From Thiorhodovibrio litoralis (GTDB lineage Bacteria > Pseudomonadota > Gammaproteobacteria > Chromatiales > Chromatiaceae), in NCBI RefSeq assembly GCF_033954455.1, contig NZ_CP121473.1, positions 1,178,001 to 1,242,000 of the forward strand: DNA of 64,000 nucleotides. The letters run 5' to 3'. Positions 39,743-54,826 of this stretch are shown piece after piece. Under the pieces are notes generated by a model. The model saw only the letters and a program-made list of their open reading frames with translations, did not search any database and had not been told where the DNA came from. How positions within the stretch are numbered: position 1 is the first letter of the stretch; the number at the start of each line of letters is the position of its first letter. A program made the translations under genes and the position numbers.

Positions 39743-42136
39743 TTAATACAAGCGCTGCTGAAACCCCACAAACACCTCCCGAATCCCGCCAGGCGGCCCC
39801 AGCTCCGCCACCGCATCCGCGACGCTGTGATACTTCAGCTCAATCAACTGCGGCAGGCGTTCGGCGTCGAGCACGTCCACCCCAGTGCTGACATAGTGAT
39901 CCAGCACGAAGCTCAAGAACTGCTGCTGGGGATACTCATGGCCGGCAAAGATCGCGTCCCGATGGGAGACAACCCGCTCCGCGCGGGTGATCGGGGGCTG
40001 GGCGTAGGCAATGTAAGCCAGCACGTCGTATAAGTCGCTGTGTTCCGCCTCGACCAACTTGCCGATCTCGCGCAGTTGCTCCACCCCGTAGCCGCGTTCT
40101 TCCAGCCCCTGCAACAGCGCCTTGCGGGTGTCCGGTTGGCCCCAGAGTTGGCGTAATTCGTCCTCGTTCTTGAACAGCTCGGGCAGTTCGCCGTAGAGCC
40201 GCTCCACAAACTGCCGCGCCGAGATCGGCTTGCCGTCGGGGCTCCAAAAGCTGGTCGCGCTCATGGACTGGATCAGGCGTTCCTTGCCGTCCGCCAGTTT
40301 GATCTTGACCTTGCGGCGGGGTTGGGTCTCGCATTCGCATGGAGACATCCCGCACTTGGGGCAGGGTTCCGGTCCGGCCTTTTCGCAGATGCACGGCGTT
40401 TCGCCGCAGACCTCGCAAGGCTGCGGTTGCGGTCGCGCGCAGGTGCAGGGCTGATTGCCGCAGCGCCGGCAGGGCTCGGGCTCCAGCGGCTCGCCGTCCC
40501 ACTCCGGGTCGTTAAAATGCTCGTAAGCCTTCACGAAGTCGTGAATGGTGAAGTAGTCCTTGCCGTCGAACAGCCGGGTGCCGCGCCCGATGATCTGCTT
40601 GAACTCGATGATGGAGTTGACCGGGCGCATCAGCACGATATGGCGGACGTTGCGCGCGTCCACCCCGGTGGAGAGCTTCTGCGAGGTGGTCAGCATGGTG
40701 GGGATGGTCTTTTCGTTGTCGCGAAAGGCCTTCAACCAGGCGTCGCCCTGGGCACCGTCATTGGCCGTTACCCGCTCGCAATAGTGCGGGTCCGGGTTGG
40801 TCTTGAGCTGATTGATCAGGTTGCGTATCGCCAGCGCATGCGCCTGGGTGGCGCAGAACACCAGGGTCTTCTCGCGCGGGTCGATGGCGTCGAGAAACTG
40901 CTTCACCCGGTAGCGCTCGCGCGCTTCGATCTCGATCACCCGGTTGAAGTCGTCCTCGGTATAACGGTGGCCGTCCTCGATCTCGCCCTCGATGATGTCA
41001 TCATCCGGGGTATAGACATACTCATCCAGGGTGGTGGCGATTTGCCGCACCTTGAAGGGCGTCAGGTAGCCGTCGTTGATGCCCTCCTTCAGCGAGTAGA
41101 CATAGACCGGCTCGCCAAAATAGACATAAGTATCGGCGTTGTGACGGCGCTTGGGCGTGGCGGTCAGGCCCAGCTGCACCGCCGGGCTGAAGTGCTCCAT
41201 GATGCCGCGCCAGTTGCTCTCGTTGTTGGCGCCGCCCCGGTGGCACTCATCGATCACCACGAAGTCGAAGAAGTCCGGCGGGTAATCGCCAAAGCTCGGG
41301 GCCGGTTTGCCGCTGGCGTCCCGCCCACTCATAAAGGTCTGGAAGATGGTGAAAAACAGGCTGCCATTCTTCGGCACCCGGCCGCGCTTGCGGATAATCT
41401 GGGGGTCGATGCGCACCAGGGCATCGTCAGGAAAGGCCGAGAAGTCGTTGAACGCCTGATCGGCCAGGATGTTGCGATCCGCCAGGAACAGAATGCGCGG
41501 CAGCCGGCCAGGCTCTCCGGTCTCGCGTGCCAGCAGGCTCCAGCGGGCTTGGAACAGCTTCCAAGAGATTTGAAAGGAGATGGCGGTCTTGCCCGTCCCG
41601 GTGGCCAGGGTCAGCAGAATCCGATCCCGGCCAGCCGCGATGGCCTCCAGCGCCCGGTTGATGGCGTTGTGCTGGTAGTAGCGCGGCTGCCAGAAACCGC
41701 CCTTGTCCTCGAAAGGCACCTCACCGAAGCGCTCGCGCCAGGCATTGACCTCGGCAAAGGTCAGATCCCATAGGCTTTGCGGGCTTGGCCAAGCCTCCAG
41801 CGGGCCTTCCGCGCCGGTCTCCATGTCCACCTGATAGACCCCGAGGCCGTTGGTGGAAAGCGCAAAGCGGGCCTGCAAGCGTTCCGCGTAGCGCTTGGCC
41901 TGCGCCAGCCCTTCGGTCAAATCCAGGTCGCGGCGCTTAGCCTCCAGCACCGCGAGCTTTTGGCCCTGGTAGATCAGCACATAGTCGGCAATGTCCTGCC
42001 GCGCCCTTCGCCCGCCGCCGAGCAGCCGCCCCGGCGCGATCACCTCGCGGCGCACCCGACTGCCGTCCACCACACCCCAGCCGGCGTCTTTCAGCGCGGG
42101 GTCGATGAGCTCGGCGCGGGTTTCGGCTTCGTTCAT
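39743..42136 (-). CDS. hsdR: Type I restriction enzyme R subunit (EcoEI-like HsdR)
   Basis: The 797-residue protein holds the N-terminal PD-(D/E)XK nuclease site (RQDIADYVLIYQGQKLAVLEAKRRD) and a superfamily 2 translocase: ILLTLATGTGKTAISFQI, ILFLADRNILADQA, VVIDECHRGGANNESNW, LGLTATPKR, TTSQKLSTGVDARNVRHIVLM and IGRGTRLFDGK. The C-terminal EcoEI_R_C region (MSATSFWSPDGKPISARQFVERLYGELPELF) is present. Between motor and C-terminal domain (about 40330-40475) lie three cysteine clusters of the type CxxCGxxPCxC. ATG 42136 begins MNEAETRAELIDPALKDAGW, which is the family start; upstream frame codons are unlike HsdR. It acts only with HsdM2S, and the hsdM copy here is frameshifted. Confidence 0.93.
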   Translation of the reverse strand: MNEAETRAELIDPALKDAGWGVVDGSRVRREVIAPGRLLGGGRRARQDIADYVLIYQGQKLAVLEAKRRDLDLTEGLAQAKRYAERLQARFALSTNGLGVYQVDMETGAEGPLEAWPSPQSLWDLTFAEVNAWRERFGEVPFEDKGGFWQPRYYQHNAINRALEAIAAGRDRILLTLATGTGKTAISFQISWKLFQARWSLLARETGEPGRLPRILFLADRNILADQAFNDFSAFPDDALVRIDPQIIRKRGRVPKNGSLFFTIFQTFMSGRDASGKPAPSFGDYPPDFFDFVVIDECHRGGANNESNWRGIMEHFSPAVQLGLTATPKRRHNADTYVYFGEPVYVYSLKEGINDGYLTPFKVRQIATTLDEYVYTPDDDIIEGEIEDGHRYTEDDFNRVIEIEARERYRVKQFLDAIDPREKTLVFCATQAHALAIRNLINQLKTNPDPHYCERVTANDGAQGDAWLKAFRDNEKTIPTMLTTSQKLSTGVDARNVRHIVLMRPVNSIIEFKQIIGRGTRLFDGKDYFTIHDFVKAYEHFNDPEWDGEPLEPEPCRRCGNQPCTCARPQPQPCEVCGETPCICEKAGPEPCPKCGMSPCECETQPRRKVKIKLADGKERLIQSMSATSFWSPDGKPISARQFVERLYGELPELFKNEDELRQLWGQPDTRKALLQGLEERGYGVEQLREIGKLVEAEHSDLYDVLAYIAYAQPPITRAERVVSHRDAIFAGHEYPQQQFLSFVLDHYVSTGVDVLDAERLPQLIELKYHSVADAVAELGPPGGIREVFVGFQQRLY

Positions 42137-42225
42137 CAGAGCGCAACCAAATAGATCCAGCCGCCCAGTTGCGGCAAGATTAAGAAGGGGTGAGCGATTG
42201 GAAACAACAACCTCAGTGTTCCAGG

Positions 42226-42346
42226 GAATCAAAACCCGATCAAGAAAGTTCAGATGGTTTTTGGCATCTTAAGTAATTGATTCAATTTACTTTAGTGAAT
42301 TTCGCCCCGTCGTGGTTTCGCTCAGAATCAAAACCCCATCAAGAAA
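42226..42346. repeat. 22-bp direct repeat upstream of hsdR
   Basis: GAATCAAAACCCGATCAAGAAA at 42226-42247 recurs with one mismatch (G to C) at 42325-42346, 99 bp apart, in the AT-richer gap before hsdR. It could be a duplicated control site or a trace of an insertion or deletion event. Confidence 0.7.
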
Positions 42347-42347
42347 C

Positions 42348-43802
42348 TCAAGCCCAGCTTGGAATGTACCCGCTGCGCGGATGCTCCGGATCTGCCGCCT
42401 TGATGAGCCCGGCGTCGAGAGTCTTGTTGATGACCATTGTCGCCTGCGATGCGTTCTTCGACTCGATTCCAAAGCGCTGACACAGGCTGGCATTTTTCAT
42501 CCGCTCACCACTGAGGAATTTTAGCACTGTATGCTGATAACAAGCACGGATTCTCTCATCCGGCGTCATGTGCGCGTAGCGCCTTGGCCCATAGAGAATC
42601 ACCTGCATCGAATGCTCGCCTTCCCGAAACAGCGGCGGCGGTAGCTGATGGCGCTCCACGGTGGCGATGACTTTATCCAGTCCGCTGCCTTGTTCCTCGC
42701 AAAACCCCATGCGGCGCATCAGGGCGGCCAATGCCTCGTTGCGGGACCGTGGCGGCAGGTCAATCATGCGATCAGCCTGGATCAAAGGCCGCCCGGGATT
42801 GGTGATCTCGATGCGATCATCAAACAGTTCGACCTGCGGTCCCGTGCCGGTCACCGTCATATCTTGATGGATCAGCGCGTTCACCACCAATTCGCGCACC
42901 GCCAGCTCTGGAAACAGGGGTTGTGCTTCGCGAATCGCGGCGCCGATCTGCTCTTGCGTTGGAATCATGCCATTGATATACCCAACCAGCCCCTCGAGAC
43001 CGGCGGCATAGCCTTTTTGCCCGTCCAATCGATGGGTCACGGTCGCCGCGCGGTTCTTGCCAGCGTAAACCACCAGCCGCACCGCCTTGCGCGCCAACGA
43101 TGGCTCGAACCGGTCGAGCTGGGTGGCGAACAATATCGCCCCAAGATGGGTGATGTTCCAACGCTGGCCAACATCACGCGCGATCAGTCGATCCGCCTCC
43201 AGCCGCTCGAAGATACCGGCGCGGTTATCCGGCAACGGATGGCGCGTGAGGCGGAAATACTGGGCATAGTCGAGCAGATCCAGCACCTCGTCGCCGCTCG
43301 CGTACGCTAGTGCGATGCCGTGCTCCCAGGCAAAGGGCCGCAGGCATTCGATCAGCTTGGTGTAACGCTCGGGATAATCCGTGAGCTTGGGCGTGGCGCT
43401 GCCAATGCGGATATAAGGGATGTTGTTGAAGGCCAACGGCGCCGAGGTCGCGGCCGGAATTTCCAGCAGCACCACCCGACCGTCGGGATGATTGACGGCG
43501 CGAAAGCCAAAGGCAGGGCTGGGTTGTAACCGCTGGGCGAGCCAGAGCTGAAACTCCTGATTGCCGGCCCGGAAGCTTGCCGGGTCAAAGCGGGTGCCGA
43601 TCACGGCATGGGTGGCATCGTCGATACCCCAGAGCAGATAGCCGAAGTCCCGTCCTTCCAATCGCGCGGCATTGGACAGCGCCGAACAACGCTTGCCGAT
43701 GTTTTCCGGATCGACGTTGTCCCGTTTGAATTCCAGCCAGGGCTGTTCCGCGCCGAGGGCTCGCAACTCGTCGATCAGATCGATGTCGCGCGCCTCGTTC
43801 AC
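42348..43802 (-). CDS. AlbA_2 (Schlafen-type) ATP-binding protein in the RM operon
   Basis: The 484-residue protein has an N-terminal AlbA_2 domain: LIDELRALGAEQPWLEFKRDN, KRCSALSNAARLEGRDFGYLLWGIDDATHAVIGT. A GHKL-like ATPase module of the 'HATPase_c_4' type (ELAVRELVVNALIHQDM, IEITNPGRPLI, GFCEEQGSGLDKVI) follows. A winged-helix-like C-terminus ends in SGYIPSWA. Such proteins are frequent near type I RM systems and other defence genes; a role in regulating or supporting the system is suspected, not shown. The GTG start at 43802 overlaps the hsdS stop (GTGA), so it is translated with hsdS. Confidence 0.85.
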   Translation of the reverse strand: MNEARDIDLIDELRALGAEQPWLEFKRDNVDPENIGKRCSALSNAARLEGRDFGYLLWGIDDATHAVIGTRFDPASFRAGNQEFQLWLAQRLQPSPAFGFRAVNHPDGRVVLLEIPAATSAPLAFNNIPYIRIGSATPKLTDYPERYTKLIECLRPFAWEHGIALAYASGDEVLDLLDYAQYFRLTRHPLPDNRAGIFERLEADRLIARDVGQRWNITHLGAILFATQLDRFEPSLARKAVRLVVYAGKNRAATVTHRLDGQKGYAAGLEGLVGYINGMIPTQEQIGAAIREAQPLFPELAVRELVVNALIHQDMTVTGTGPQVELFDDRIEITNPGRPLIQADRMIDLPPRSRNEALAALMRRMGFCEEQGSGLDKVIATVERHQLPPPLFREGEHSMQVILYGPRRYAHMTPDERIRACYQHTVLKFLSGERMKNASLCQRFGIESKNASQATMVINKTLDAGLIKAADPEHPRSGYIPSWA

Positions 43803-45046
43803 GCGGCCACCTGTTCGGCCTCACGCTCAAGCTTGTCGGTGGTGAGTTCGCCTGCGAAAGCTTTGTGGAGGAGGGATTGTTTGAGTTCGTTTAGTGCGGA
43901 CTGCTTTTCAATATAGATGGCCAGCAATCTATCACTTTCAGCTTCCAGTTCATTCAATCGTCCTGCTATCTCCGCTTGTTTTGATTGTGTTGCCGGAAAT
44001 CTGACAGCGATAGCTCCAAGTTTGGCAGGAGATGTATGCCTAACTTTTACGCCAGAAGCAGTGGATTGCACCGAGGCTCGGAATGCTCGAGTGTTGAACT
44101 GATGAAAGAAAAAATCGTTTTCCCACTGAATACCATCTAAAACTTCAACAAGTCCCAATCGCTGATTGTGCAAATACCTATCTGGCTCTGGTACGATCAA
44201 AGAGCTTCCGAGCACGCCAACAGCCTGTTCTGTCATAGCAATTAGGAAATCACCTCTGCTTAAGATAAAGCCTGAAGGTATTTCGCCAGAGTAAAACTTT
44301 GTCTTCTTGCCTTGGTCTCTAAATCCGCCGCGCTCCCAAAAGGAACCTGGAGTTAAAATAACGTACTTCCCTTTAGTTGCGAAATATTCACTCTTGAAAG
44401 CGAAGCCATGCTTGATCGAGCAAAGTTCGTTTAGATTCCTTTTTTCCCATGAATCAGGCGCAAACATAAATGTTGAGTCTCGGGCAGCCTCAAAGACTTC
44501 CCGCGCATTCGCCAGGTTCTTTTCGGTATTGGCGATGGCCATCTCAATCCCGGTGAATGCTTCGTCGAGAATGGAGACTATGCGCTTTTGAGTTGATATA
44601 GGCGCGAACTGAACTTGAGTGGTCTTTATCTTAATCTGAGAAATATTAGGCTGGGCGTTGCCCGTCGCCCTTGCGACAAGGTCTTTTTGTCTATAAAGCA
44701 AAGAGTAGTAGAGATACTCGGGTAGGAATTTCTCGTTTGGATAAATGCCGCAAACTGCCTGATTAGTAGCAGAGTTGAATCGAAGTATTCCTACTTGTCC
44801 CGCTGTTGCACCATACATTGCGATTAGTACAGTATTTTTTGGGAAAACTTTTGCTGAGGACCGCTCCAAGCCCAACTCAGTAATGAAATGCTTGGCAGAA
44901 GTAATGTCCCGTCTGCAGACTTCACCGCTTAAAAGCCAAGGGATCTCGCCACCTTCATAGAATTCTCGTCTTGATTTGAGCGGAGTACCACCTGCTCCAG
45001 TCTTACAAACTTTTCCAATCTCCACTGGAGTCCATTTTTCTTTCAC
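43799..45046 (-). CDS. hsdS: Type I restriction enzyme specificity subunit
   Basis: HsdS sets the DNA target for methylation and cleavage. The 415-residue protein has two target-recognition domains: about residues 5-180 (GGTPLKSRREFYEGGEIPWL, MYGATAGQVGIL, GNAQPNISQIKI) and 200-375. Each is followed by a helical spacer (QKRIVSILDEAFTGIEMAIANTEKNL, and QAEIAGRLNELEAESDRLLAIY). It ends with the typical LNELKQSLLHKAFAGELT. The recognition sequence cannot be read off. Base composition is clearly AT-richer than its neighbours, common for exchanged hsdS genes. GTG 45046 overlaps the hsdM stop. Confidence 0.92.
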   Translation of the reverse strand: MKEKWTPVEIGKVCKTGAGGTPLKSRREFYEGGEIPWLLSGEVCRRDITSAKHFITELGLERSSAKVFPKNTVLIAMYGATAGQVGILRFNSATNQAVCGIYPNEKFLPEYLYYSLLYRQKDLVARATGNAQPNISQIKIKTTQVQFAPISTQKRIVSILDEAFTGIEMAIANTEKNLANAREVFEAARDSTFMFAPDSWEKRNLNELCSIKHGFAFKSEYFATKGKYVILTPGSFWERGGFRDQGKKTKFYSGEIPSGFILSRGDFLIAMTEQAVGVLGSSLIVPEPDRYLHNQRLGLVEVLDGIQWENDFFFHQFNTRAFRASVQSTASGVKVRHTSPAKLGAIAVRFPATQSKQAEIAGRLNELEAESDRLLAIYIEKQSALNELKQSLLHKAFAGELTTDKLEREAEQVAA

Positions 45047-46526
45047 AACATCCCCCGAATCCCTTCCAGAATCTCCTCACTCTCCTTATCCAGCGTCTCA
45101 ATCTCGTTAATAATCACCTCCGGATCACGCAGCGGTGCTTCCTCCGCCTTGTTGGGGTTGCGCACCGACAGGTCCCAGGTTTCCTGATCGACATCGGAAA
45201 TATCCACCGACCAGGACTGCTCCGAGTCAGCAAAGCTGGCTTGCAGCTCCGCAAACTCCTTCAGGTCATCATCATTCAGCGGGCTGGTCTTGCCGAGGCT
45301 GCGACCCGGATCAAGCTGGTAGTACCAAATCCGCCGCGTCGGGGCACCTTTCTCGAAGAAGAGCACCACGGTTTTGACGCCGGCGCCGAGGAAGGTGCCG
45401 CCAGGGCAATCGAGGATGCTGTGCAGGTTGCAGCCGTGCAGCAATTCCCGCCGCAGCGCGCGGGAGAGGCATTGTCCGAGTTCGACAGGAAGGTGTTCTT
45501 GATAACGATGGCGGCGCGGCCGCCAGCCTTGAGGTACTTGATGAAGTGCTGCAAGAACAGAAAGGCGGTCTCGCCGGTTTTGATGTCGAAATTCTGCTGA
45601 ATCTCCTTGCGTTCCTTGCCGCCGAAGGGCGGATTGGCCAGAATGACCTCGAAGCGGTCTTTCTCCTGCACATCGGCCAGGTTCTCCGTCAGGCTGTTGG
45701 TGTGCAGGACATTGGGCGCCTCGATGCCGTGCAGGATCATGTTCATGATCCCGATCACATAGAGTAGGCTTTTCTTCTCCTTGGCGAAGAAGGTGCGGGT
45801 CTGCAAGATGTCGAGATCGTGCGTGGAGAGCTTGGGCGGATTGGGGCTGTCCGGTCCCTCGGGGCCGTAACGGAGATAATCATGCGCCTCGCACAAGAAC
45901 CCGGCCGAGCCGGCGGCGGCATCGTAGATGCGCTCGCCGATCTGGGGCTTGACCACCCGGATCATGGCGCGGATCAGCGGGCGCGGGGTGTAGTACTCAC
46001 CGCCATTGCGCCCGGCGTTGCCCATGTTGCGAATCTTGGCTTCGTACAGGTGCGATAGCTCGTACTTCTCCTTCTGCGAGCGGAAGCTCAGGCCGTCCAC
46101 TAGCTCCAGGGCATCGCGCAGGCTGTAGCCGCTTTGGAACTTGTTGGGAATCTCGCCAAAGATTTCGCCGATCTTGTACTCGATGGTGTTGGTATCCGCC
46201 GCGCGCGTCTTAAAGCCTTTGAGGTAGGGAAACAGCTCGGCGTTGACGAACAGGATCAGGTCGGGGCCGGTCAGGGCGTTGTCATGGTCAAAGCGGCCAT
46301 CGGCGGTCTTGGGCGCGGCCCAGCTCGACCAGCGGTACTTGGGCTCGATGAGGTGCCGATAGGGCTTGCCCATCAGCTCGGCCTCGATCGCGTGCTCGCG
46401 CTCCAGATCGTCGAGGTACTTCAGGAACAGCATCCAGGAGGTTTGCTCGGTGTAGTCGAGCTCGGTCGCGCAACCGGCCTCTTTCCAGAGCACATCGTCG
46501 ATATTGCGGAAGCTTTGTTCAAACAC
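45043..46526 (-). pseudogene. hsdM: Type I DNA methyltransferase HsdM, frameshifted
   Basis: The N6-adenine methyltransferase part is intact: FEQSFRNIDDVLWKEAGCATELDYTEQTSWMLFLKYLDDLE, GGEYYTPRPLIRAMI, IYDAAAGSAGFLCEA (SAM site) and FEVILANPPFGGKE (NPPF). At about 45473 the reading frame shifts; an extra TC within GCCTCTCCCGCG accounts for it. The original frame would read SRALRRELLHGCNLHSILDCPGGTF and continue VVLFFEKG to the stop at 45043. Without the fix, translation drifts into an unrelated tail and stops at 45276. Restart at ATG 45444 could yield a split protein. GTG 46526, with GGGAAAG upstream, is the chosen start. A sequencing error is possible. Confidence 0.82.
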
Positions 46527-46607
46527 GGGCAATCTTTCCCTGTACTTCGAAGGGGAATGCAATCCCAAGGTCGGTGCGGCTGGCTCGCTCGCCGTCTCAC
46601 TCAGCAC

Positions 46608-48041: not shown

Positions 48042-48057
48042 AATGGCGGAGAGGGTG
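48042..48057. repeat. Left attachment repeat (attL core)
   Basis: AATGGCGGAGAGGGTG is identical to the 3' end of the tRNA-Ser gene at 54735-54750 and marks the left edge of the element. Identity stops directly on both sides. Confidence 0.85.
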
Positions 48058-48078
48058 TCCGCTGGATACCTGTCCGCA

Positions 48079-48141
48079 CCGTCTGCTACCGTCTGCTAAA
48101 CCGCTGATATAAATGGGAGTCGCTGTCCTTATCGTCTGCTA
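48079..48141. repeat. Repeated CCGTCTGCTA units before the integrase
   Basis: CCGTCTGCTA occurs twice in tandem (48079-48088, 48089-48098) and once with a T first (48132-48141). A weaker copy (TTGTCTGGTG) follows at about 48142-48151. The position between attL and the integrase fits excisionase or regulator sites, but this is inference. Confidence 0.6.
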
Positions 48142-48164
48142 TTGTCTGGTGCGAGCCGATGCAT

Positions 48165-48188
48165 GTTTGTATACTGGCTTGTATACCG
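48165..48188. repeat. Left pair of TTGTATAC repeats (candidate integrase arm sites)
   Basis: GTTTGTATAC (48165-48174) is followed by CTTGTATACCG (48178-48188). The same pair occurs close to the right end of the element. Being paired at both ends and inside the att repeats is what arm-type integrase sites would look like. Confidence 0.6.
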
Positions 48189-48209
48189 ACATCAGCGGAG
48201 GGTCCAGAC

Positions 48210-49460
48210 ATGGCGGCAATTCACAAGCTCACAGACAGGCAGGCGCAGACCGCGCGCAAGACCATCAGCGACGGCGGCAACCTGTATCTGGTTGTCGGCA
48301 AGAATGGTAGCAAGAAATGGGTCTTTCGCTACAGCTACAGCGGCAAGTCCCGCGCGAAAGGACTCGGCAGCTACCCGAGCACAACCCTGGCAGATGCGCG
48401 CGACCAGGCGGCTAAGGCGCGCGACCAGCTCAAGGCCGGCGTTGACCCGCTCGATGCTCCCGTCGACGATGCTGATGCAGAGCCGTCGGTCCCTTCCTTC
48501 ACCCAGGTAGCAGCGCGCTTTATCCGTGGTCGCAAGCGGTCATGGTCTAACCCGAAGCATCGGCGTCAGTGGGTCTCGACCATGCGGACTTACGCGCGGC
48601 CAGTCATCGGCAGCAAGCCGGTCGACAGCATCACAACAGCGGATGTGCTGGCTATCCTCGAGCCGATATGGCACTCCCGCACAGAGACGGCAAAGCGGGT
48701 GCAAGGTCGGGTGGAGAATATCCTCGACTTCGCATCGGCGCATGGGTGGCGCGATCCGCTCAACCCGGCAAGGTGGCGCGGCCATCTGGACAAGCTCTTG
48801 CCAGCGGCGGCGAAGGTGAAGCGGCAAAAGACAGGCGGCGTCACCCGGCATCACCCGGCGCTTGACCACCGAGACCTCCCGCGCTTCTATGCAGAGCTTG
48901 TGGCCACCGAGGGTCTGTCCGCGCTGGCGCTTCGCTGGCTGATCCTCACGGCCACCAGGACATCAGAGACGCTCAAAGCGACGTGGTCGGAGATAGACCT
49001 CGAGTCAGGCGTCTGGTCGATACCTGGCGAGCGGATGAAGACCCGCGTTGACCACCGCGTCCCGCTCACAGATGAGATGCGCGCCATCCTCGACCAGCTC
49101 CCGCGCGTCGACGGCGAAGACTGGCTATTTCCAGGCGAGCGCAAAGGCAAGCCGCTGTCGAATATGGCGCTACTGATGCAGATGCGCCGCATGGGCTACG
49201 GCGTCAAAGGCACGCGCGGAGATGCGGTTCCGCATGGCATGCGCGCGACATTCAAGACATGGTCTGGCGAAGTCTCGACCGCACCGAGAGAGATAGTCGA
49301 AGCAGCTCTTGCGCATGCGCTCGAGAGCAAGGTGGAGCAGGCTTACCAGAGAGGCGACTTGCTCGCAAAGCGGCGGCGCTTGATGGAGCAGTGGAGCGAC
49401 TGGTGCACCAGGCCATCGGCTGACGTGGTCGACCTGGCAGAGCGGCGCAAGGCCGGCTGA
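48210..49460 (+). CDS. int: Tyrosine recombinase/integrase (DUF4102, P4-type)
   Basis: The 416-residue integrase has the N-terminal DUF4102 arm-binding domain (KLTDRQAQTARKTISDGGNLYLVV, KWVFRYSYSGKSRAKGLGSYPSTTLADAR), a core-binding domain (FTQVAARFIRGRKRSW, WVSTMRTYARPVIG), and a catalytic domain. The catalytic residues are all visible: Arg in LTATRTSETL, HGMR (His and second Arg), His in AALAHAL and Tyr in VEQAYQRGD. It should insert the element into the tRNA-Ser 3' end. ATG 48210 has GGAGGG nine bases upstream; the frame is open to 48159 but crosses the GTATAC repeats. Confidence 0.92.
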   Translation: MAAIHKLTDRQAQTARKTISDGGNLYLVVGKNGSKKWVFRYSYSGKSRAKGLGSYPSTTLADARDQAAKARDQLKAGVDPLDAPVDDADAEPSVPSFTQVAARFIRGRKRSWSNPKHRRQWVSTMRTYARPVIGSKPVDSITTADVLAILEPIWHSRTETAKRVQGRVENILDFASAHGWRDPLNPARWRGHLDKLLPAAAKVKRQKTGGVTRHHPALDHRDLPRFYAELVATEGLSALALRWLILTATRTSETLKATWSEIDLESGVWSIPGERMKTRVDHRVPLTDEMRAILDQLPRVDGEDWLFPGERKGKPLSNMALLMQMRRMGYGVKGTRGDAVPHGMRATFKTWSGEVSTAPREIVEAALAHALESKVEQAYQRGDLLAKRRRLMEQWSDWCTRPSADVVDLAERRKAG

Positions 49461-49688
49461 ATTTTCAGCTCCCGAGGGTTTGCGACTGCGACTCTTGCGA
49501 CTCTTGCGACACTTGGCGGCAAGTTTGGCGCGTCTGTCAGGGTATCAAGACATCCTGTGCTGTCAGTCAACACTGACGCGAATTGACGCCAGTCAAAAAG
49601 ACTAGATGTTGCGCGTTAGCTCTAACGCGCGCACAAGATATAGTGGTTGACAACGGACGAAAGCAAGGTATTGTGGACAGCTTAGGAC

Positions 49689-49725
49689 AAAAAAAGACCG
49701 GAGGTGCTGGTAACACCATCCGGTC
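49689..49725 (-). terminator. Intrinsic terminator for leftward transcription
   Basis: Read on the minus strand, a GC-rich stem (GACCGGA paired with TCCGGTC, plus GGTG with CACC) is followed directly by seven T. No protein gene is read leftward here, so it implies a non-coding or antisense transcript. Confidence 0.6.
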
Positions 49726-49842
49726 CGGTTGTCCGATAGGCTCGGACGGGCGCTTGATGCACTTGTGACCGCTCCGAGCATCCTTGCCGGAGTGATAGGC
49801 GTCTGGTCTGTTCGTTTGCGAATAACGCAATATAAGCGACTA

Positions 49843-49862
49843 TAACGGACAATAACGGACAA
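49843..49862. repeat. Tandem TAACGGACAA repeats upstream of alpA
   Basis: Two perfect head-to-tail copies of the 10-mer TAACGGACAA, with degenerate copies upstream (AATAACGCAATATAAGCGAC) and ACAACGGACG at about 49650. One-helical-turn spacing suggests iteron-like binding sites. Confidence 0.6.
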
Positions 49863-49912
49863 TAGCAAGACCCTGTCCCGCCGGTATCTTCAGCTCCCGG
49901 AGATACTGAAAA

Positions 49913-50128
49913 ATGCAGTCACAGCAACCCACCATCATTCGGCCGTCTGGCATCAAGGCAGCTACCGGCTACGCTCGCTCGACAGCTTACGAGAAGATGA
50001 AGCGCGGCGAATTCCCGCAGACCGTTAAGCTCGGAGCGCGCGCGGTCGGCTGGTTAAAGTCGGACGTTGACCAGTGGCTCGCGGAGCGCGTAGCAGCGTC
50101 CCGCACTGACCCGTCATCGGCAGCATGA
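49913..50128 (+). CDS. AlpA-family transcriptional regulator/excisionase
   Basis: The 71-residue protein matches the AlpA family: IIRPSGIKAATGYARSTAYEKMKRGEFPQTVKLGARAVGWLKSDVDQWLAERV. The MerR-like winged helix-turn-helix is in the first 35 residues, followed by the GARAVGW turn. AlpA-type proteins control integrase genes in P4-like elements or act as excisionases. GGAG lies 10 bases upstream of the ATG. It is 10 bp before the replication gene, and repeats that could be its targets lie both upstream of it and upstream of int. Confidence 0.9.
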   Translation: MQSQQPTIIRPSGIKAATGYARSTAYEKMKRGEFPQTVKLGARAVGWLKSDVDQWLAERVAASRTDPSSAA

Positions 50129-50138
50129 GGGTCAGACA

Positions 50139-52907
50139 ATGCTTACAGACAACAAAGCCGTGGCGGCTGGCACCGCTCACGGCTCAATAGGTTATTGCGC
50201 GCTCAATTCTACCACCACCACCGACCCGGAGCCGTTTTCCCTGGCAGCTCCCGAGGTATTCCAGCCACCCGAGCCGCAGCAGATACAGGCGCGGTTTGAT
50301 GCACTCACAGCCGGCGGATGGACTCAGGCCGGTATCGTATCGGAGGTACGCAAGCGCGGCATCAAGCTCGACCCTGGCGACTTCTCAAACGCACGGCGCG
50401 GCAAGCATGGCAAGAAATTGTCGCGCGAGCAGTGGCATGCGCTCCAGGCGCTCCCGGTTGACCACCAGGATGATGTCGTTGTCGACAACCAGAACGACAG
50501 CGCTGTCGACCACCAGGATGATGAGCAAGCCGGCGTCGACCTGACCACCCGGCGCGCGGAGGCGGAGCGGTATCTGGCCATCCTCGACAGCGAGGCGGAG
50601 AGCTTCACGTTCCAGACCTTCGACGATACCGAGGCAAAGCGCGGCCATCTGGCGCAGACCATCGTCGGAGACCTCGAGTCCGTCTGGTCACAGCTCGAGC
50701 GGCTAAACCAGGCTGGCGCGGGTGTATTCGTCACGGTCAATGAGACCCGAGGCCAGACCCGGCGCGCGGGTGACGTGGTCAGGGTGCGCGCATGCTTCGC
50801 GGACTACGATCCACCGAAGACAGCGCCAGCACCCGCGCTTGCTGACTATCCGCTCGCACCGGTCATGCTGGTGGAGTCCAGTCCCGGCAAGACACATACC
50901 TACTGGACAGTCGACGGACTCGACCTCCTGCACTTCAAGCCGATGCAGCAGGCCATCAGCGGTCGACTCGGATCTGACCCGGCACCGAACGACCTCCCGC
51001 GCGTCATGCGACTCCCTGGCTTCTATCACTGCAAAAACCCTGACCATCGGCATCTGGTGCGCGTGGTCTGGACAGATGAGCGGCAACCCTACCAGGCGGA
51101 GCAGGTGCGCGCGGCATTCGGCCAGCAGCGCCAGCAGCAGCAGGTGCAGCACCAGGCCACCGAGCAGACCGACACCGCGCGGCCGGCTGACACCGACCCG
51201 GTTGTCCAGGCGCTCACGGACAAGGGTTTGCTCTTACAGCGTCGACGCGACGGCGGGTGGCACATTCGCTGTCCGTGGGAGTCGGAGCACACAACACCGT
51301 CGACACCGACCTCGAGCACCTATTTCCCGGCGCATACCGGCGGTTATGCAGGCGCGGCGTACAAGTGCCAGCACTCACACTGCGCAGAGCGCGGCATATT
51401 CGACCTGAAAGAGCATCTCGGCATTGACCCGTGGCCAGACCTCGAGTCGCTCCACAACATCACCGAGCCGGAGCCTTACCCGCTCGACGCGCTACCAGAG
51501 CGCGTGAGAGCCGCTGTCGCGGAGGTGCAGGGCTTCGTCAAGGCACCGCTCCCGCTGGTCGCCACCAGCGCGCTATCGGTGCTGTCAGTGGCAACACAAG
51601 GGCATGTCGATGTCGCGCGCGCGGAGAAGCTCAAGGGTCCGAGCAGCTTGTTCATGCTGGCCATTGCGGACTCAGGCGAGCGCAAGAGCACCGTCGACGG
51701 GTTTTTCACAGCGGCCATTCGCGAATATGAGGCGAAACAGCACGAGGCGATGAAGTCGGAGCTTGAAGACTACCGCGCGGCAATGAAGAAATGGCAGGCG
51801 GAGTGCGATGGACTCTTGACTGGTATTCGGCAGTCGCGAAAGGCCGGCAAGTCCGAAAAGGTGAAAGAGTATGGACTCGCACTGCAAGACCTCGAGCACA
51901 GCAAGCCGGCGGAGCCGCGCGTTCCGCGTCTGCTACGCGGAGACGATACACCCGAGGCGCTGGCGTGGTCGTTGGCGAAGCAATGGCCGTCGGCTGGCGT
52001 CCTGTCATCCGAGGCCGGCGTCATCTTCGGCGCGCATGGCATGGGCAAAGACAGCGTCATGCGCAACCTGGCGCTGTTGAATATCTTGTGGGACGGCGGC
52101 TGTCTCGACATCGGGCGGCGGACAACGGAGAGCTTCACCGTCAAGGGTGCGCGCTTCACCGTGGGTCTGATGGTACAAGAGCAGACCTTGCGCGAATACT
52201 TCGACCGAGCCGGCGCGCTGGCGCGTGGGTCAGGGTTTCTTGCGCGCTTTCTCGTTTGCTGGCCGAAGTCGACGCAAGGCATGCGGCCATTCACCGATCC
52301 GCCGGAGCACTGGCCGGCGCTGGCGCGGTTCAACTCCCGGCTGTCAGGCATCCTCGAGAGTCCCGTCGTACCGGATGAAGACGGCAGGCTATCACCGCAT
52401 CTGCTCACGCTGGCACCCGATGCAAAGGCGTTGTGGGTGCAGTTCCATGATGCCATCGAGGCGGAGCTTGCACCCGCCGGAGAGCTTCACGAGGTGCGCG
52501 ACGTGGCGGCGAAGGTGGCTGATAACGCGGCCAGACTTGCGGCGCTGTTTCACGTCTTCGAGCATAACCTGGCTGACCCTATCGGCGTCGACATCATGGA
52601 GCGCGCGGTCCGCATTGTGACCTGGCATTTGTCCGAGGCGCGGAGGTTTTTCGGAGAGCTTGCGGTTCCACCCGCAACCCTGGCAGCAGCGCAGCTCGAG
52701 CAGTGGCTTGTGGGTCACTGTCGTGCGCATGGAGTCGATACGGTCAAGCGCAAGGAAGTGCAGCAGCTTGTGACACCGGCGGCACTGAGACGCGGAGACA
52801 AGCTCACAGATGCGATCCTGACCCTGGCAGAGCATGGTCGGGTGCGCGAGCGCGTCGACGGCAAGAAAAAGCTCTTGCAGGTGAGGCCGGAGGTGCTCGC
52901 AGCATGA
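50139..52907 (+). CDS. RepB-type primase / DUF3987 replication protein
   Basis: The 922-residue protein has a polar N-terminus with repeats of VDHQDD/VDNQND (residues about 107-128). A RepB-like primase domain follows (GDVVRVRACFADYDPP, PVMLVESSPGKTHTYWTV, DLPRVMRLPGFYHCKNPDH). Next is a Cys/His segment (IRCPWESEHTTP to KCQHSHC) like a zinc finger. The C-terminal DUF3987 domain has a Walker-like loop in LAIADSGERKSTVDGFF and the downstream VLSSEAGVIFGAHGMG and ARGSGFLARFLVCWP. A winged-helix-like region ends it. It should prime and perhaps unwind DNA at the element's origin. GAGGG precedes ATG. Its stop overlaps the next gene by ATGA. Confidence 0.82.
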   Translation: MLTDNKAVAAGTAHGSIGYCALNSTTTTDPEPFSLAAPEVFQPPEPQQIQARFDALTAGGWTQAGIVSEVRKRGIKLDPGDFSNARRGKHGKKLSREQWHALQALPVDHQDDVVVDNQNDSAVDHQDDEQAGVDLTTRRAEAERYLAILDSEAESFTFQTFDDTEAKRGHLAQTIVGDLESVWSQLERLNQAGAGVFVTVNETRGQTRRAGDVVRVRACFADYDPPKTAPAPALADYPLAPVMLVESSPGKTHTYWTVDGLDLLHFKPMQQAISGRLGSDPAPNDLPRVMRLPGFYHCKNPDHRHLVRVVWTDERQPYQAEQVRAAFGQQRQQQQVQHQATEQTDTARPADTDPVVQALTDKGLLLQRRRDGGWHIRCPWESEHTTPSTPTSSTYFPAHTGGYAGAAYKCQHSHCAERGIFDLKEHLGIDPWPDLESLHNITEPEPYPLDALPERVRAAVAEVQGFVKAPLPLVATSALSVLSVATQGHVDVARAEKLKGPSSLFMLAIADSGERKSTVDGFFTAAIREYEAKQHEAMKSELEDYRAAMKKWQAECDGLLTGIRQSRKAGKSEKVKEYGLALQDLEHSKPAEPRVPRLLRGDDTPEALAWSLAKQWPSAGVLSSEAGVIFGAHGMGKDSVMRNLALLNILWDGGCLDIGRRTTESFTVKGARFTVGLMVQEQTLREYFDRAGALARGSGFLARFLVCWPKSTQGMRPFTDPPEHWPALARFNSRLSGILESPVVPDEDGRLSPHLLTLAPDAKALWVQFHDAIEAELAPAGELHEVRDVAAKVADNAARLAALFHVFEHNLADPIGVDIMERAVRIVTWHLSEARRFFGELAVPPATLAAAQLEQWLVGHCRAHGVDTVKRKEVQQLVTPAALRRGDKLTDAILTLAEHGRVRERVDGKKKLLQVRPEVLAA

Positions 52908-53305
52908 AGTTATCCGCTCTTATGCGACCCGGCGCACTCCGAGGTACAGCGCCAACATCAGCGCCAACGGTCGCAACAGTCGCAACAATAGCAGTCGCAA
53001 GACCACCAGAGCCGAAAATTGACCCGCCACCGCTCACGGCAGCAGAGCAGGCGGACATCACCGAGGCCGTGGTGGAACGCGCGGCCATCATGGAATTTGA
53101 TGTTGGACTCCGGCGACCCGAGGCGGAGCAGCAGGCGCGGTCACTGATGAGGGTCTATCGGGTGCTGGTGGCAATGGATGATGAGCCGGCGCGCTGGTGC
53201 ACGCTGCTTGCTCCCGGATGTGACATCACCCAGGCACAGCGCGCGGCGGTCGCTCAATTCGGCGCAGCGCGGGTGCTCGAGGTGCGGGAGGCTGACCATG
53301 TCTAA
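52904..53305 (+). CDS. Hypothetical element protein
   Basis: The 133-residue protein starts MKLSALMRPG by ATGA overlap with the replication gene. Its first 45 residues are Ala/Thr/Pro-rich and look disordered; the rest is helical (EQADITEAVVERAAIMEFDVGL, EAEQQARSLMRVYRVLVAMDD, ITQAQRAAVAQFGAARV). I do not recognise the family. It may be a partner of the replication protein, given the coupling. Confidence 0.7.
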   Translation: MKLSALMRPGALRGTAPTSAPTVATVATIAVARPPEPKIDPPPLTAAEQADITEAVVERAAIMEFDVGLRRPEAEQQARSLMRVYRVLVAMDDEPARWCTLLAPGCDITQAQRAAVAQFGAARVLEVREADHV

Positions 53306-53561
53306 TATCCGCGCGCTCAATAGCGACAACGACGTTATGCGGGAGGCTGAAAGACATGGCGTAGCGGATGCACTGCGCAAAGCTCGCGCAAGAGCAGATG
53401 GTCATGTCTCAGCTATCACCACCACAAGCGCGCTGTTCATTGTCTGTGCGACACCACCCGATGATGGATATATCGCTTTTGTGGGAGACGGTCCCGGCGA
53501 CCTCCCGGAGATACTCGCGCGGCTGAATGGTGCGCGCATCAGCGGTTTAGATGGGAGGTGA
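53298..53561 (+). CDS. Hypothetical element protein
   Basis: The 87-residue protein has GGGAGGCTGACC upstream of ATG 53298 and overlaps the previous gene by 8 bp. It contains DNDVMREAERHGVADALRKARARADG (helical) and SALFIVCATPPDDGYIAFVGDGPGDLPEILARL (alternating strands). No known motif is seen. Its stop is two bases before the DUF5681 start. Confidence 0.68.
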   Translation: MSNIRALNSDNDVMREAERHGVADALRKARARADGHVSAITTTSALFIVCATPPDDGYIAFVGDGPGDLPEILARLNGARISGLDGR

Positions 53562-53562
53562 A

Positions 53563-53982
53563 ATGGCAGTCAGGCGCGACACACAAGGCCGGTTCACGGT
53601 CGGACATCCCGGCGGACCTGGCAGACCGAAGCGGCAGACCGAGGCCGGCTACCTATCAACCATGATGAGCGTGGTCGACCTCGACCAGTGGCGTCGCATC
53701 TGCGAGAAGGCGCGAGACGATGCGCTGGCTGGCGATGAAAAAGCGCGGTCCTGGCTGGCGCGGTATCTGGTCGGAGACCCGAGCGCGAAAGCTCCCGCCA
53801 CCACCGAGGTAATTATTCAGCAGCTCCTACAGCTCGACCCCGCGCTCGACAAAGCGGCGATGCGACTCGCGGCACCCGAGCTAACCAGTGAAGAGTTTCC
53901 AGGACTCGCGGCAAAAGAGCGCCATGAGTCGGTTGTCAGAGCAGAAGCGGCGGCGGCCATCCTCCAGGCGGAGGCGGTCTAG
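53563..53982 (+). CDS. DUF5681-domain protein
   Basis: The 139-residue protein begins with the DUF5681 pattern RDTQGRFTVGHPGGPGRPKR (residues 5-24), a short basic segment common on phage and satellite proteins near packaging genes. A helical body (LDQWRRICEKARDDALAGDEKARSWLARYLVGDP) and an acidic end follow. GGGAGGTGAA precedes the ATG. DUF5681 has no settled function, but its position beside terminase genes in many phages suggests DNA binding. Confidence 0.78.
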   Translation: MAVRRDTQGRFTVGHPGGPGRPKRQTEAGYLSTMMSVVDLDQWRRICEKARDDALAGDEKARSWLARYLVGDPSAKAPATTEVIIQQLLQLDPALDKAAMRLAAPELTSEEFPGLAAKERHESVVRAEAAAAILQAEAV

Positions 53983-54100
53983 CGGGGCTTACACTAACTG
54001 TGGGTCCCTCTGGAGCTTGATGCACCACGGGTTGTTCGAGGCGCGGTGTCTGGCTAGTGACAGGAAAAAAAAACTTGGTTGTTTCTTGAGGATGTTTGAC

Positions 54101-54502
54101 ATGGCAAAGAGCGACAGCACCGACCCGGTCGGTATTGAAGACGGACTCACAGACCAGCAACGACGCGGCGCAGAGCTTGCGGCGGCTGGCTGGTCAGGCG
54201 TGGATATTGCCGGAGAGCTTAACGTCAGGCCGGAGACGGTCAGCAGATGGAGAAAGCTCCCGGCGTGGCAGGCGGCTGTCGACGGCATCTTGTCCGAGGC
54301 GCGAGCGGTTATCGGGAGTCGCGTTCTAGACTTGTCCGAGCGCGCGCTTGACCAGCTCGAGCTACTGGTCGAATACCGGCACAACCCGACTATCCGACTC
54401 AGAGCTTGCATTGAGATGGTCAGGCTGGCCGGCGTCGGTCGCGCGGTATCGGGTGGCCAGCGGAGCAGCAACCTCCCGACCAGAGCAGCGAGCGGAGAAT
54501 GA
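54101..54502 (+). CDS. HTH protein resembling a phage terminase small subunit
   Basis: The 133-residue protein has an N-terminal helix-turn-helix (DQQRRGAELAAAGWSGVDIAGELNVRPETVSRWRKLPAWQAAVDGIL), followed by a helical oligomerisation-like region (RVLDLSERALDQLELLVEY, IRLRACIEMVRLAGVG). Layout and size fit TerS-like proteins that recognise packaging sites; it could also be a simple regulator. ATG 54101 has GAGGA upstream. The TGA overlaps the next ATG. If it is a small terminase, the element could redirect packaging by a helper phage. Confidence 0.65.
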   Translation: MAKSDSTDPVGIEDGLTDQQRRGAELAAAGWSGVDIAGELNVRPETVSRWRKLPAWQAAVDGILSEARAVIGSRVLDLSERALDQLELLVEYRHNPTIRLRACIEMVRLAGVGRAVSGGQRSSNLPTRAASGE

Positions 54503-54654
54503 GCCGAAAACAGCTCGAGCCGATGCGCGCGGCAGCAGCAACCACCGACACCGCTGTCGACTTCGATCTGCCGACTGACTTCGACTTACCGGCTGACTTC
54601 GACTTGCCGACTGACTTCGACATGCCAGCACCACCGAAAAAGACCCGGTACTGA
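54499..54654 (+). CDS. Small acidic ORF with DFDLP repeats
   Basis: A 51-codon ORF starts by ATGA overlap with the TerS-like gene and ends just before the right-end repeats. Its middle consists of four head-to-tail copies of DFDLPT/A (the last is DFDMPA), followed by the basic end PPKKTRY. The DNA is an 18-bp tandem repeat from 54559 to about 54624, and the repeats keep the frame. The pattern suggests a short linear motif that binds a partner protein. No homologue is known to me. Confidence 0.55.
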   Translation: MSRKQLEPMRAAAATTDTAVDFDLPTDFDLPADFDLPTDFDMPAPPKKTRY

Positions 54655-54659
54655 TGCGC

Positions 54660-54683
54660 GTTTGTATACCCGTTTGTATACCG
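54660..54683. repeat. Right pair of TTGTATAC repeats (candidate arm sites)
   Basis: GTTTGTATAC occurs at 54660-54669 and 54672-54681, followed by CG, mirroring the pair at the left end in the same orientation. Confidence 0.6.
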
Positions 54684-54734
54684 GCGGAGATAGTCAAAGA
54701 GAAAGGCGAGAAAAAACAGGATATTGAAAACATG

Positions 54735-54750
54735 AATGGCGGAGAGGGTG
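54735..54750. repeat. Right attachment repeat (attR core) within tRNA-Ser
   Basis: AATGGCGGAGAGGGTG covers the tRNA 3' end, with CCA, and two bases beyond. It matches the left copy exactly. Confidence 0.85.
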
Positions 54751-54826
54751 GGATTCGAACCCACGGACGGGATTAACCGTCGCCGGTTTTCAAGACCGGT
54801 GCATTCAACCGCTCTGCCACCTCTCC
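54737..54826 (-). tRNA. tRNA-Ser (anticodon UGA)
   Basis: A 90-base class II tRNA on the minus strand. The acceptor stem GGAGAGG pairs with CCTCTCC, with discriminator G and an encoded CCA. The anticodon loop CTTGAAA between CCGGT and ACCGG gives anticodon UGA at 54790-54792. A long variable arm (GACGGTTAATCCCGTC) and the T-arm GTTCGAATCC follow. It serves as the integration target of the element. Confidence 0.95.

Follow-up and report, generated by a model that had tools for sequence, protein, structure and literature searches.

Results

The tRNA-Ser(UGA) locus and its element

The window is a stretch of 64,000 nucleotides from the purple sulfur bacterium Thiorhodovibrio litoralis (NCBI RefSeq assembly GCF_033954455.1, contig NZ_CP121473.1, positions 1,178,001 to 1,242,000, forward strand). 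In this study, we analysed an element at positions 48044-54736 of the window, which lies beside an intact tRNA-Ser(UGA) gene. The genes of the element all run in one direction, in the order integrase, AlpA-family regulator, primase/DUF3987 protein, three small frames, a helix-turn-helix (HTH) protein resembling the small subunit of phage terminase (TerS), and a possible 51-aa frame. As shown in Table 1, the element is framed by attachment (att) repeats. Their 14-bp core, TGGCGGAGAGGGTG, is the 3' end, CCA included, of tRNA-Ser(UGA). The core occurs 2 times in the window, compared with a mean of 0.00 in shuffled sequences (none in 100 shuffles). The whole genome is one contig of 5.47 Mb, and the core was found in it at exactly four sites, all of which are ends of two copies of the element; two more tRNA-like sites are one base off the core. 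The shuffles and the genome-wide count rule out att repeats by chance. These results show that 48044-54736 is a precisely bounded mobile element carrying its own tyrosine integrase.

Pfam and PHROG searches of the open reading frames (ORFs) of the element recognised no structural, lytic or relaxase family. No capsid or capsid-shaping family was recognised among these ORFs, and PADLOC gave no match among 7 proteins. A previous sequence-only reading of the locus had described 16-bp att repeats, an intact tRNA target, an integrase, AlpA, a RepB-primase/DUF3987 protein and a lack of structural and transfer genes in 6.7 kb, and each of these points was borne out in the present analysis. Its DUF5681 label fell below the Pfam cut-off, and the 139-aa frame to which the label had been given is present.

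Table 1. Features of the element and its target, in window coordinates.
Feature	Position	Strand	Remarks
Whole element, att core to att core	48044-54736	+	6,693 bp; bounded by core repeat, second copy with identical ends, congener empty site
Left attachment repeat AATGGCGGAGAGGGTG	48042-48057	+	16 bp; 14-bp core at 48044-48057
Short CGTCTGCTA-type repeats, left core to int	48078-48148	+	Tandem array 48078-48098; repeat D15
TTTGTATAC-type repeats, candidate left arm-type integrase sites	48165-48188	+	Word GTTTGTATAC common to right end
Tyrosine integrase	48210-49460	+	Likely start 48210, open frame from 48159; PF13356, PF22022 and PF00589 above cut-off
9-bp tandem array TGCGACTCT	49480-49515	+	Between int and alpA
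10-bp tandem array GACAATAACG	49838-49864	+	Upstream of alpA; possible regulatory site
AlpA-family regulator or excisionase	49913-50128	+	PF05930 E 4.7e-17; phrog_2790 E 8.9e-11
922-aa replication protein, RepB-type primase + DUF3987 (helicase-like)	50139-52907	+	PF16793 E 7.9e-10; PF13148 E 2.3e-97
133-aa small gene	52904-53305	+	Open frame from overlapping start; no Pfam family
9-bp iterons CAACAGTCG	52965-52995	+	58 bp past primase stop; candidate replication origin
87-aa small open frame	53298-53561	+	No family above cut-off
139-aa protein, weakly DUF5681-like	53563-53982	+	PF18932 E 0.047, below cut-off
TerS-like HTH protein, 133 aa	54101-54502	+	234 bp from tRNA; phrog_2538 E 1.2e-4
Possible 51-aa frame with 18-bp repeat (DFDLPT units)	54499-54654	+	Repeat array 54559-54629
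Paired GTTTGTATACC, candidate right arm-type integrase sites	54660-54683	+	12 bp apart
Right attachment repeat AATGGCGGAGAGGGTG	54735-54750	+	16 bp, overlaps tRNA 3' end
tRNA-Ser(UGA) (TGA in DNA letters), intact integration target	54737-54826	-	ARAGORN

A second copy and an empty site

The second copy lies at 4191724-4203592 of the same genome, inside tRNA-Ser(CGA), and its identity with the window element starts at 48044. Where the two copies align, they show zero mismatches, and the alignment gaps comprise an 18-bp repeat unit and a single base at the junction of an insertion. Besides insertions, the sole change in the shared sequence is the one extra 18-bp unit that copy 2 carries in its DFDLPT array. 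One insertion in copy 2 is a 3.5-kb IS21-type element with IstB (PF01695, E 4.8e-59), a transposase (PF22483, E 3.4e-25) and an 8-bp duplication. The other measures 1.6 kb and encodes a 434-aa protein with a DDE transposase domain below the cut-off (E 8.2e-4). The flanks to the left of the core differ between the copies. An assembly duplication is ruled out by the differing flanks, the two insertions and the extra repeat unit.

The comparison within the genus covered three genomes. The left flank of copy 2 is also present in the congener G028 (99.7% identical over 390 bp), where it runs into tRNA-Ser(CGA) with a single core, and this empty site is joined exactly at the predicted core. The left flank of the window element had no match beside tRNA-Ser(UGA) in G028 or in the other congener, G076, so the empty state of the UGA site was not seen there. 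In G076, the CGA site is occupied by a different 5.9-kb island (L130, 4998-10322, minus strand), whose genes encode an integrase with 61% identity, an AlpA-like protein and an AAA protein of 767 aa; a 204-aa gene without a Pfam family stands at the position where others carry TerS. A broken relative of the window element (L036) was found elsewhere in G076. Separately, an orphan 65-bp piece in G028 (G028:C1:3286276 onward, L131:7273-7337) is 98% identical to the tRNA-Ser(CGA) end of copy 2 and lies about 133 kb from the real gene; it may be a scar, or the distal end of a further, larger integration.

The island of Thiocapsa roseopersicina DSM 217 forms a 6,100-bp contig, the right end of which overlaps both a tRNA-Ser(CGA) and a tRNA-Ser(UGA) contig by 95 bp. 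Such a double overlap would be expected of an element that occupies both tRNA-Ser genes, as in the window genome, but only a single left-flank contig was seen, which speaks against double occupancy. None of the six small contigs examined had a terminal overlap indicating a circular contig.

The TerS-like protein is related to phage TerS encoded beside the large terminase gene

The 54101-54502 protein on its own matched phrog_2538, the terminase small subunit family. Its relatives were then aligned (alignment A1, with L071 and L075 left out), and 11 of the 12 aligned proteins matched the same family (best 5e-10). Two homologues were found on viral contigs. In L102, the homologue (phrog_2538, 4.1e-31) is followed by the large terminase subunit TerL (9.3e-80) and then by a portal protein (5.4e-102); in L103, TerL comes directly after TerS. 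Alignment A1 matched the L102 protein with an hhalign value of 98.5% (E 1.5e-15, 32% identity, 98 columns), and the matched region spans the HTH and the helices that follow it. The window protein is thus akin to phage TerS proteins encoded beside TerL. With 11 of 12 relatives matching the TerS family and TerL directly following both viral homologues, these comparisons give good support to the TerS identity of the 54101-54502 protein.

In the AlphaFold model of the protein (mean pLDDT 83.5, with the last 16 residues poor), the HTH is followed by a helix of 37 residues and then by a return helix. In the fold search, the best PDB match was 2ao9, a phage protein, and 6 of 50 among the BFVD matches listed were named terminase small subunit. 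A sequence search of solved structures with the TerS alignment gave weak matches only (CII, E 0.0028; 2ao9, E 0.083; small terminase, E 0.16). Single-protein queries with the TerS-like protein gave no match in viral contigs.

Searching contigs with the TerS alignment yielded 20 loci, of which 11 were kept (L082-L090, L095 and L100); the matches in L090, L095 and L100 are themselves weak (E 1e-5 to 3e-4), and these loci were included on account of the genes beside them. Loci were dropped as TerS relatives where the matches were out of frame with the listed genes (L091, L092, L096 and L097) or fell in another small HTH gene (L099 and L101), and L093, L094 and L098 were dropped as well. Six viral loci were obtained, and four of them (L104-L107) were dropped as other HTH genes. 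A TerS-like match in G123 (E 4.8e-4, within a 517-aa frame) was left out of the locus set.

Related islands in the Chromatiaceae keep the TerS-like gene at the tRNA end

The TerS-like protein was matched (E 1e-3) in 14 of 194 genomes of the family, the window genome included. In a sample of 369 genomes of the class, the TerS-like profile matched 3 at E 1e-6, the window genome among them, and two class-level matches lie outside recognisable islands. The named relatives, Thiocapsa, Thiohalocapsa, Allochromatium and Halochromatium, place the group in the Chromatiaceae. We compared 13 TerS-like loci from 12 other genomes. In 11 of them, the TerS-like gene is followed by a tRNA gene at a distance of 116-1,411 bp (Ser 6, Thr 2, Lys 1, Phe 1, Leu 1). 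An integrase was matched in seven (L069, L073, L074, L076, L079, L080 and L081) and AlpA in six (L069, L073, L074, L076, L077 and L080). Pairs of att sites, 3.9-9.5 kb apart, were found in 7 of the 13, at tRNA-Ser in L069, L073, L074 and L077, at tRNA-Lys in L079 and at tRNA-Thr in L080 and L081. L075 has a stop inside TerS. One of these loci, L077 (5113-8998, read in reverse), is a 3.9-kb tRNA-Ser(CGA) island with an att pair, AlpA and the TerS-like gene and no integrase match; it may be non-autonomous and use an integrase from elsewhere.

The replication genes of these islands differ, and three kinds of replication module were distinguished. The RepB-primase/DUF3987 type is present in the window element and L073, and DUF927 in L079-L081. 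L069 has an O-like protein, L076 an HTH_36 protein, and the candidate in L074 has no Pfam family. Judged by gene content, members of the group exchange the replication gene and retain the TerS-like gene at the tRNA end. A further 70 island ORFs matched six Pfam families, none of them structural, lytic or relaxase, and none of the PHROG matches listed for island ORFs (25 of 42 families) is structural. They include phrog_57, a family called terminase small subunit that is also matched by an AlpA protein.

Candidate integrase sites and replication origin

The inner left and right ends of the window element have 3 10-mers in common, compared with 0.08 in shuffles, and the word GTTTGTATAC recurs in the broken relative L036. 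In all eight islands tested, the inner ends share 10-base words (3-14 words, compared with 0.02-0.08 in single-base shuffles). The shared words recur 12 bp apart in 6 of the 8, and their sequence is specific to each island. These words resemble arm-type integrase sites and are candidates for them; the CGTCTGCTA-type repeats near the left core are possible AlpA or Int sites. Two relatives of the integrase were found in viral contigs, at 44% and 25%.

The 50139-52907 protein also matched phrog_2373 (DNA helicase, E 7e-62) and DNA primase phrogs. A 9-bp tandem array within 150 bp past the primase stop was found in 7 of 10 loci (the window, L039, L041, L043, L044, L045 and L073), and no such array was found in L036, L040 and L042. 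This array is a candidate origin that sits in coding sequence, and similar arrays occur elsewhere in some islands. No relative of the primase was confirmed in viral contigs. Neither the 107 phage records nor the 50 plasmid records matched by the primase include one that covers 80% of the query, and all are below 60% identity. The DUF5681-like protein had no match in phage records up to E 0.1, nor in viral contigs with single-protein queries.

Search for a helper prophage

Three TerL families (phrog_2, PF03354 and PF05876) were searched in the three genus genomes. PF03354 and PF05876 gave no match. The weak phrog_2 matches (best 1.1e-6, in frames of 553-796 aa) were judged helicase-like, and phrog_2 was also matched in 11 of 14 control genomes. 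As no convincing resident prophage was found with these families, a virulent helper is possible.

To the left of the element, the minus strand of the window (39743-46607) carries a type I restriction-modification cluster. It comprises an HsdR-like gene (39743-42232), a Schlafen/AlbA_2 and RecG-C-like gene (42348-43802), a gene for the specificity subunit (43799-45046) and, at 45276-46607, an N6 methylase frame in which the match ends well short of the profile end and the C-terminus looks unlike that of a methylase.

Discussion

Comparison with known satellites

The comparison with phage-inducible chromosomal islands (PICIs) and phage-inducible chromosomal minimalist islands (PICMIs) draws on portions of the cited papers. 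Gram-negative PICIs such as EcCICFT073 and PmCI172 have, like the element, integrase and AlpA together, followed by a replication zone and then a packaging gene, in one direction. No structural or lytic genes are recognised in either, some PICIs carry TerS, and many reside in tRNA genes. The origin of gram-negative PICIs lies downstream of the primase gene (PMC10111431), where the element has its candidate. The element, at 6.7 kb, is smaller than the 10-20 kb of these PICIs, size being a usual and not a strict PICI feature (PMC6092414, PMC10111431). It also differs in having no recognised capsid or other late-gene capture, in a TerS without a phage-record match and in a host family outside those surveyed in the consulted parts of these two papers. 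Thus, the gene content is that of a gram-negative PICI, and the usual PICI size is not reached.

PICMIs are represented by PICMI115 of Vibrio chagasii (PMC10803314). In the parts of that paper used here, the gene model is an integrase, AlpA and a DUF3987 or DUF5906 primase, and the helpers are virulent phages. The element resembles PICMI115 in its size (about 6 kb in the latter), in the combination of integrase, AlpA and DUF3987-type primase (PF00589, PF05930 and PF13148 in the element) and in the lack of a capsid-remodelling gene. However, the hallmark integration of PICMIs is next to fis, they never number more than one per genome, and those parts of the paper identify no terS homologue in them. 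The element lies in tRNA-Ser(UGA) and tRNA-Ser(CGA), is present in two copies and has a TerS-like gene. Because it departs from the fis site and from the one-per-genome rule and carries a TerS-like gene, the element is not a PICMI.

P4-type satellites and capsid-forming PICIs, on the partial descriptions used here, share the integrase, the AlpA/Vis-type regulator and the primase; the latter have their own capsid genes, whereas no capsid family was found in the ORFs of the element. The gene list of P4-type satellites comprises P4 alpha, sid, psu, delta and cos. No match of the element ORFs named P4 alpha, sid, psu or delta; cos was not looked for. In three alphaproteobacterial loci (L089 from SAR116, L090 and L100), a distant relative of the same TerS comes directly after an AlpA-like gene, judged by eye in L090 and L100, and in L089 (8233-10513) an integrase and tRNA-Ser(GGA) stand just upstream of the pair. 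Unlike the element, these loci have no replication gene between AlpA and TerS, and identity is only 26-31%; no boundaries were found, and a repeat search of the tRNA end gave none. Viruses of Chromatiaceae have been reported (in the part of PMC11041744 used here), and we found no paper on phage satellites in this family in the open-access literature.

Interpretation of the element

We consider it probable that the element is a minimal phage satellite working like a gram-negative PICI or PICMI, in which the TerS would probably steer helper packaging. According to the gene families carried, a helper phage would raise AlpA, and AlpA and the integrase would then excise the island at the 14-bp tRNA-Ser core. 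In PICMI115, excision requires alpA and int, and efficient replication requires prim (PMC10803314, in part); induction of EcCICFT073 requires AlpA (PMC6092414, in part). The RepB-primase/DUF3987 protein would copy the circle, probably starting at the iterons that follow closely on its own gene. The island TerS would join the large terminase of the helper, so that packaging is steered to island concatemers in particles made by the helper. As no capsid-shaping gene was recognised, these particles would be expected to be full-size, as reported in the consulted parts of the papers on PICMI115 (PMC10803314) and EcCICFT073 (PMC6092414). After delivery, the integrase would insert the island into tRNA-Ser(UGA) or tRNA-Ser(CGA) and leave the tRNA gene whole. 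A more specific proposal, to which we give a little less than an even chance, is that these islands form a separate satellite family of the Chromatiaceae. Such a terminase-steering parasite of nearly the smallest possible size would consist of an integrase, AlpA, a replication gene that is exchanged freely and a TerS of its own beside the tRNA, and would have no capsid-shaping gene. It could be present in two isoacceptor tRNA-Ser genes simultaneously and would be mobilised by virulent phages and not by resident prophages.

The satellite interpretation has several results to contend with. The phrog_2538 score of the window TerS-like protein alone is modest (E 1.2e-4), 10 of the 12 aligned relatives also matched a general DNA-binding family, the fold search gave weak matches (E 4.5e-3 for the best in the PDB), and the protein had no match in phage records up to E 0.1. 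Six of the 13 TerS loci had no integrase match, with contig ends close by in L070 and L072, and the PHROG view of island ORFs is confined to 25 of the 42 matched families. No excised circle, helper, particle or induction was seen in the sequence data. Some of these points agree with an alternative that we regard as unlikely, a self-replicating integrative element that is no satellite, spreads passively by general transduction, transformation or gene transfer agents, and uses the HTH protein as a regulator of excision or copy number. The HTH part alone indeed matches many regulators, the three TerL families revealed no helper prophage, and three islands at tRNA-Ser (L039, L045 and L130) have integrase and AlpA-type genes and no TerS relative. 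However, the viral homologues of the protein lie directly before TerL, alignment A1 extends over the HTH and the following helices alike, and whichever replication gene an island carries, the TerS-like gene holds its place at the tRNA end.

Small size, a tRNA target and a replication gene are also seen in integrative mobilisable elements, and DUF3987 relatives were found on plasmids. Carriage of the element by a conjugative helper is nevertheless very improbable, as neither its ORFs nor the six Pfam families of the further island ORFs include a relaxase or mobilisation family. We give equally little credence to a prophage remnant with kept ends or a dead relic. Broken relatives do exist, namely L036 in G076, L075 with its interrupted TerS and L077 without an integrase match, but the two mismatch-free copies, the open frames and the exact empty site argue against decay here, as do relatives that are intact, share the plan and have no recognised phage structural family.

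With regard to the sequence-only reading, its TerS-like HTH protein has gained strong comparative support from the phrog_2538 relatives and the viral homologues beside TerL. The structure prediction that it had suggested gave fold matches that are no more than suggestive; some BFVD matches are named terminase small subunit, and the PDB matches are weak. Two outcomes that would have spoken against that reading did not occur: related islands with the same boundaries were found, as a second copy, through a congener empty site and as tRNA-core islands in other genera, and relatives are not restricted to complete prophages. Its proposal of a phage satellite is supported in part, by these islands and by the TerS comparison; three TerL families gave no convincing helper prophage in the three genus genomes.

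In conclusion, the element is likely a new, unusually small kind of phage satellite, which would add purple sulfur bacteria to the Vibrio and enteric cases of compact satellites. It also offers a natural case in which one integrase has used two tRNA-Ser isoacceptor genes, later insertions being the only difference between the copies. The comparison of islands separates the apparently indispensable parts, namely the integrase, AlpA, TerS and the tRNA end, from an exchanged replication gene, so that the smallest set of genes sufficient for a phage satellite becomes testable.

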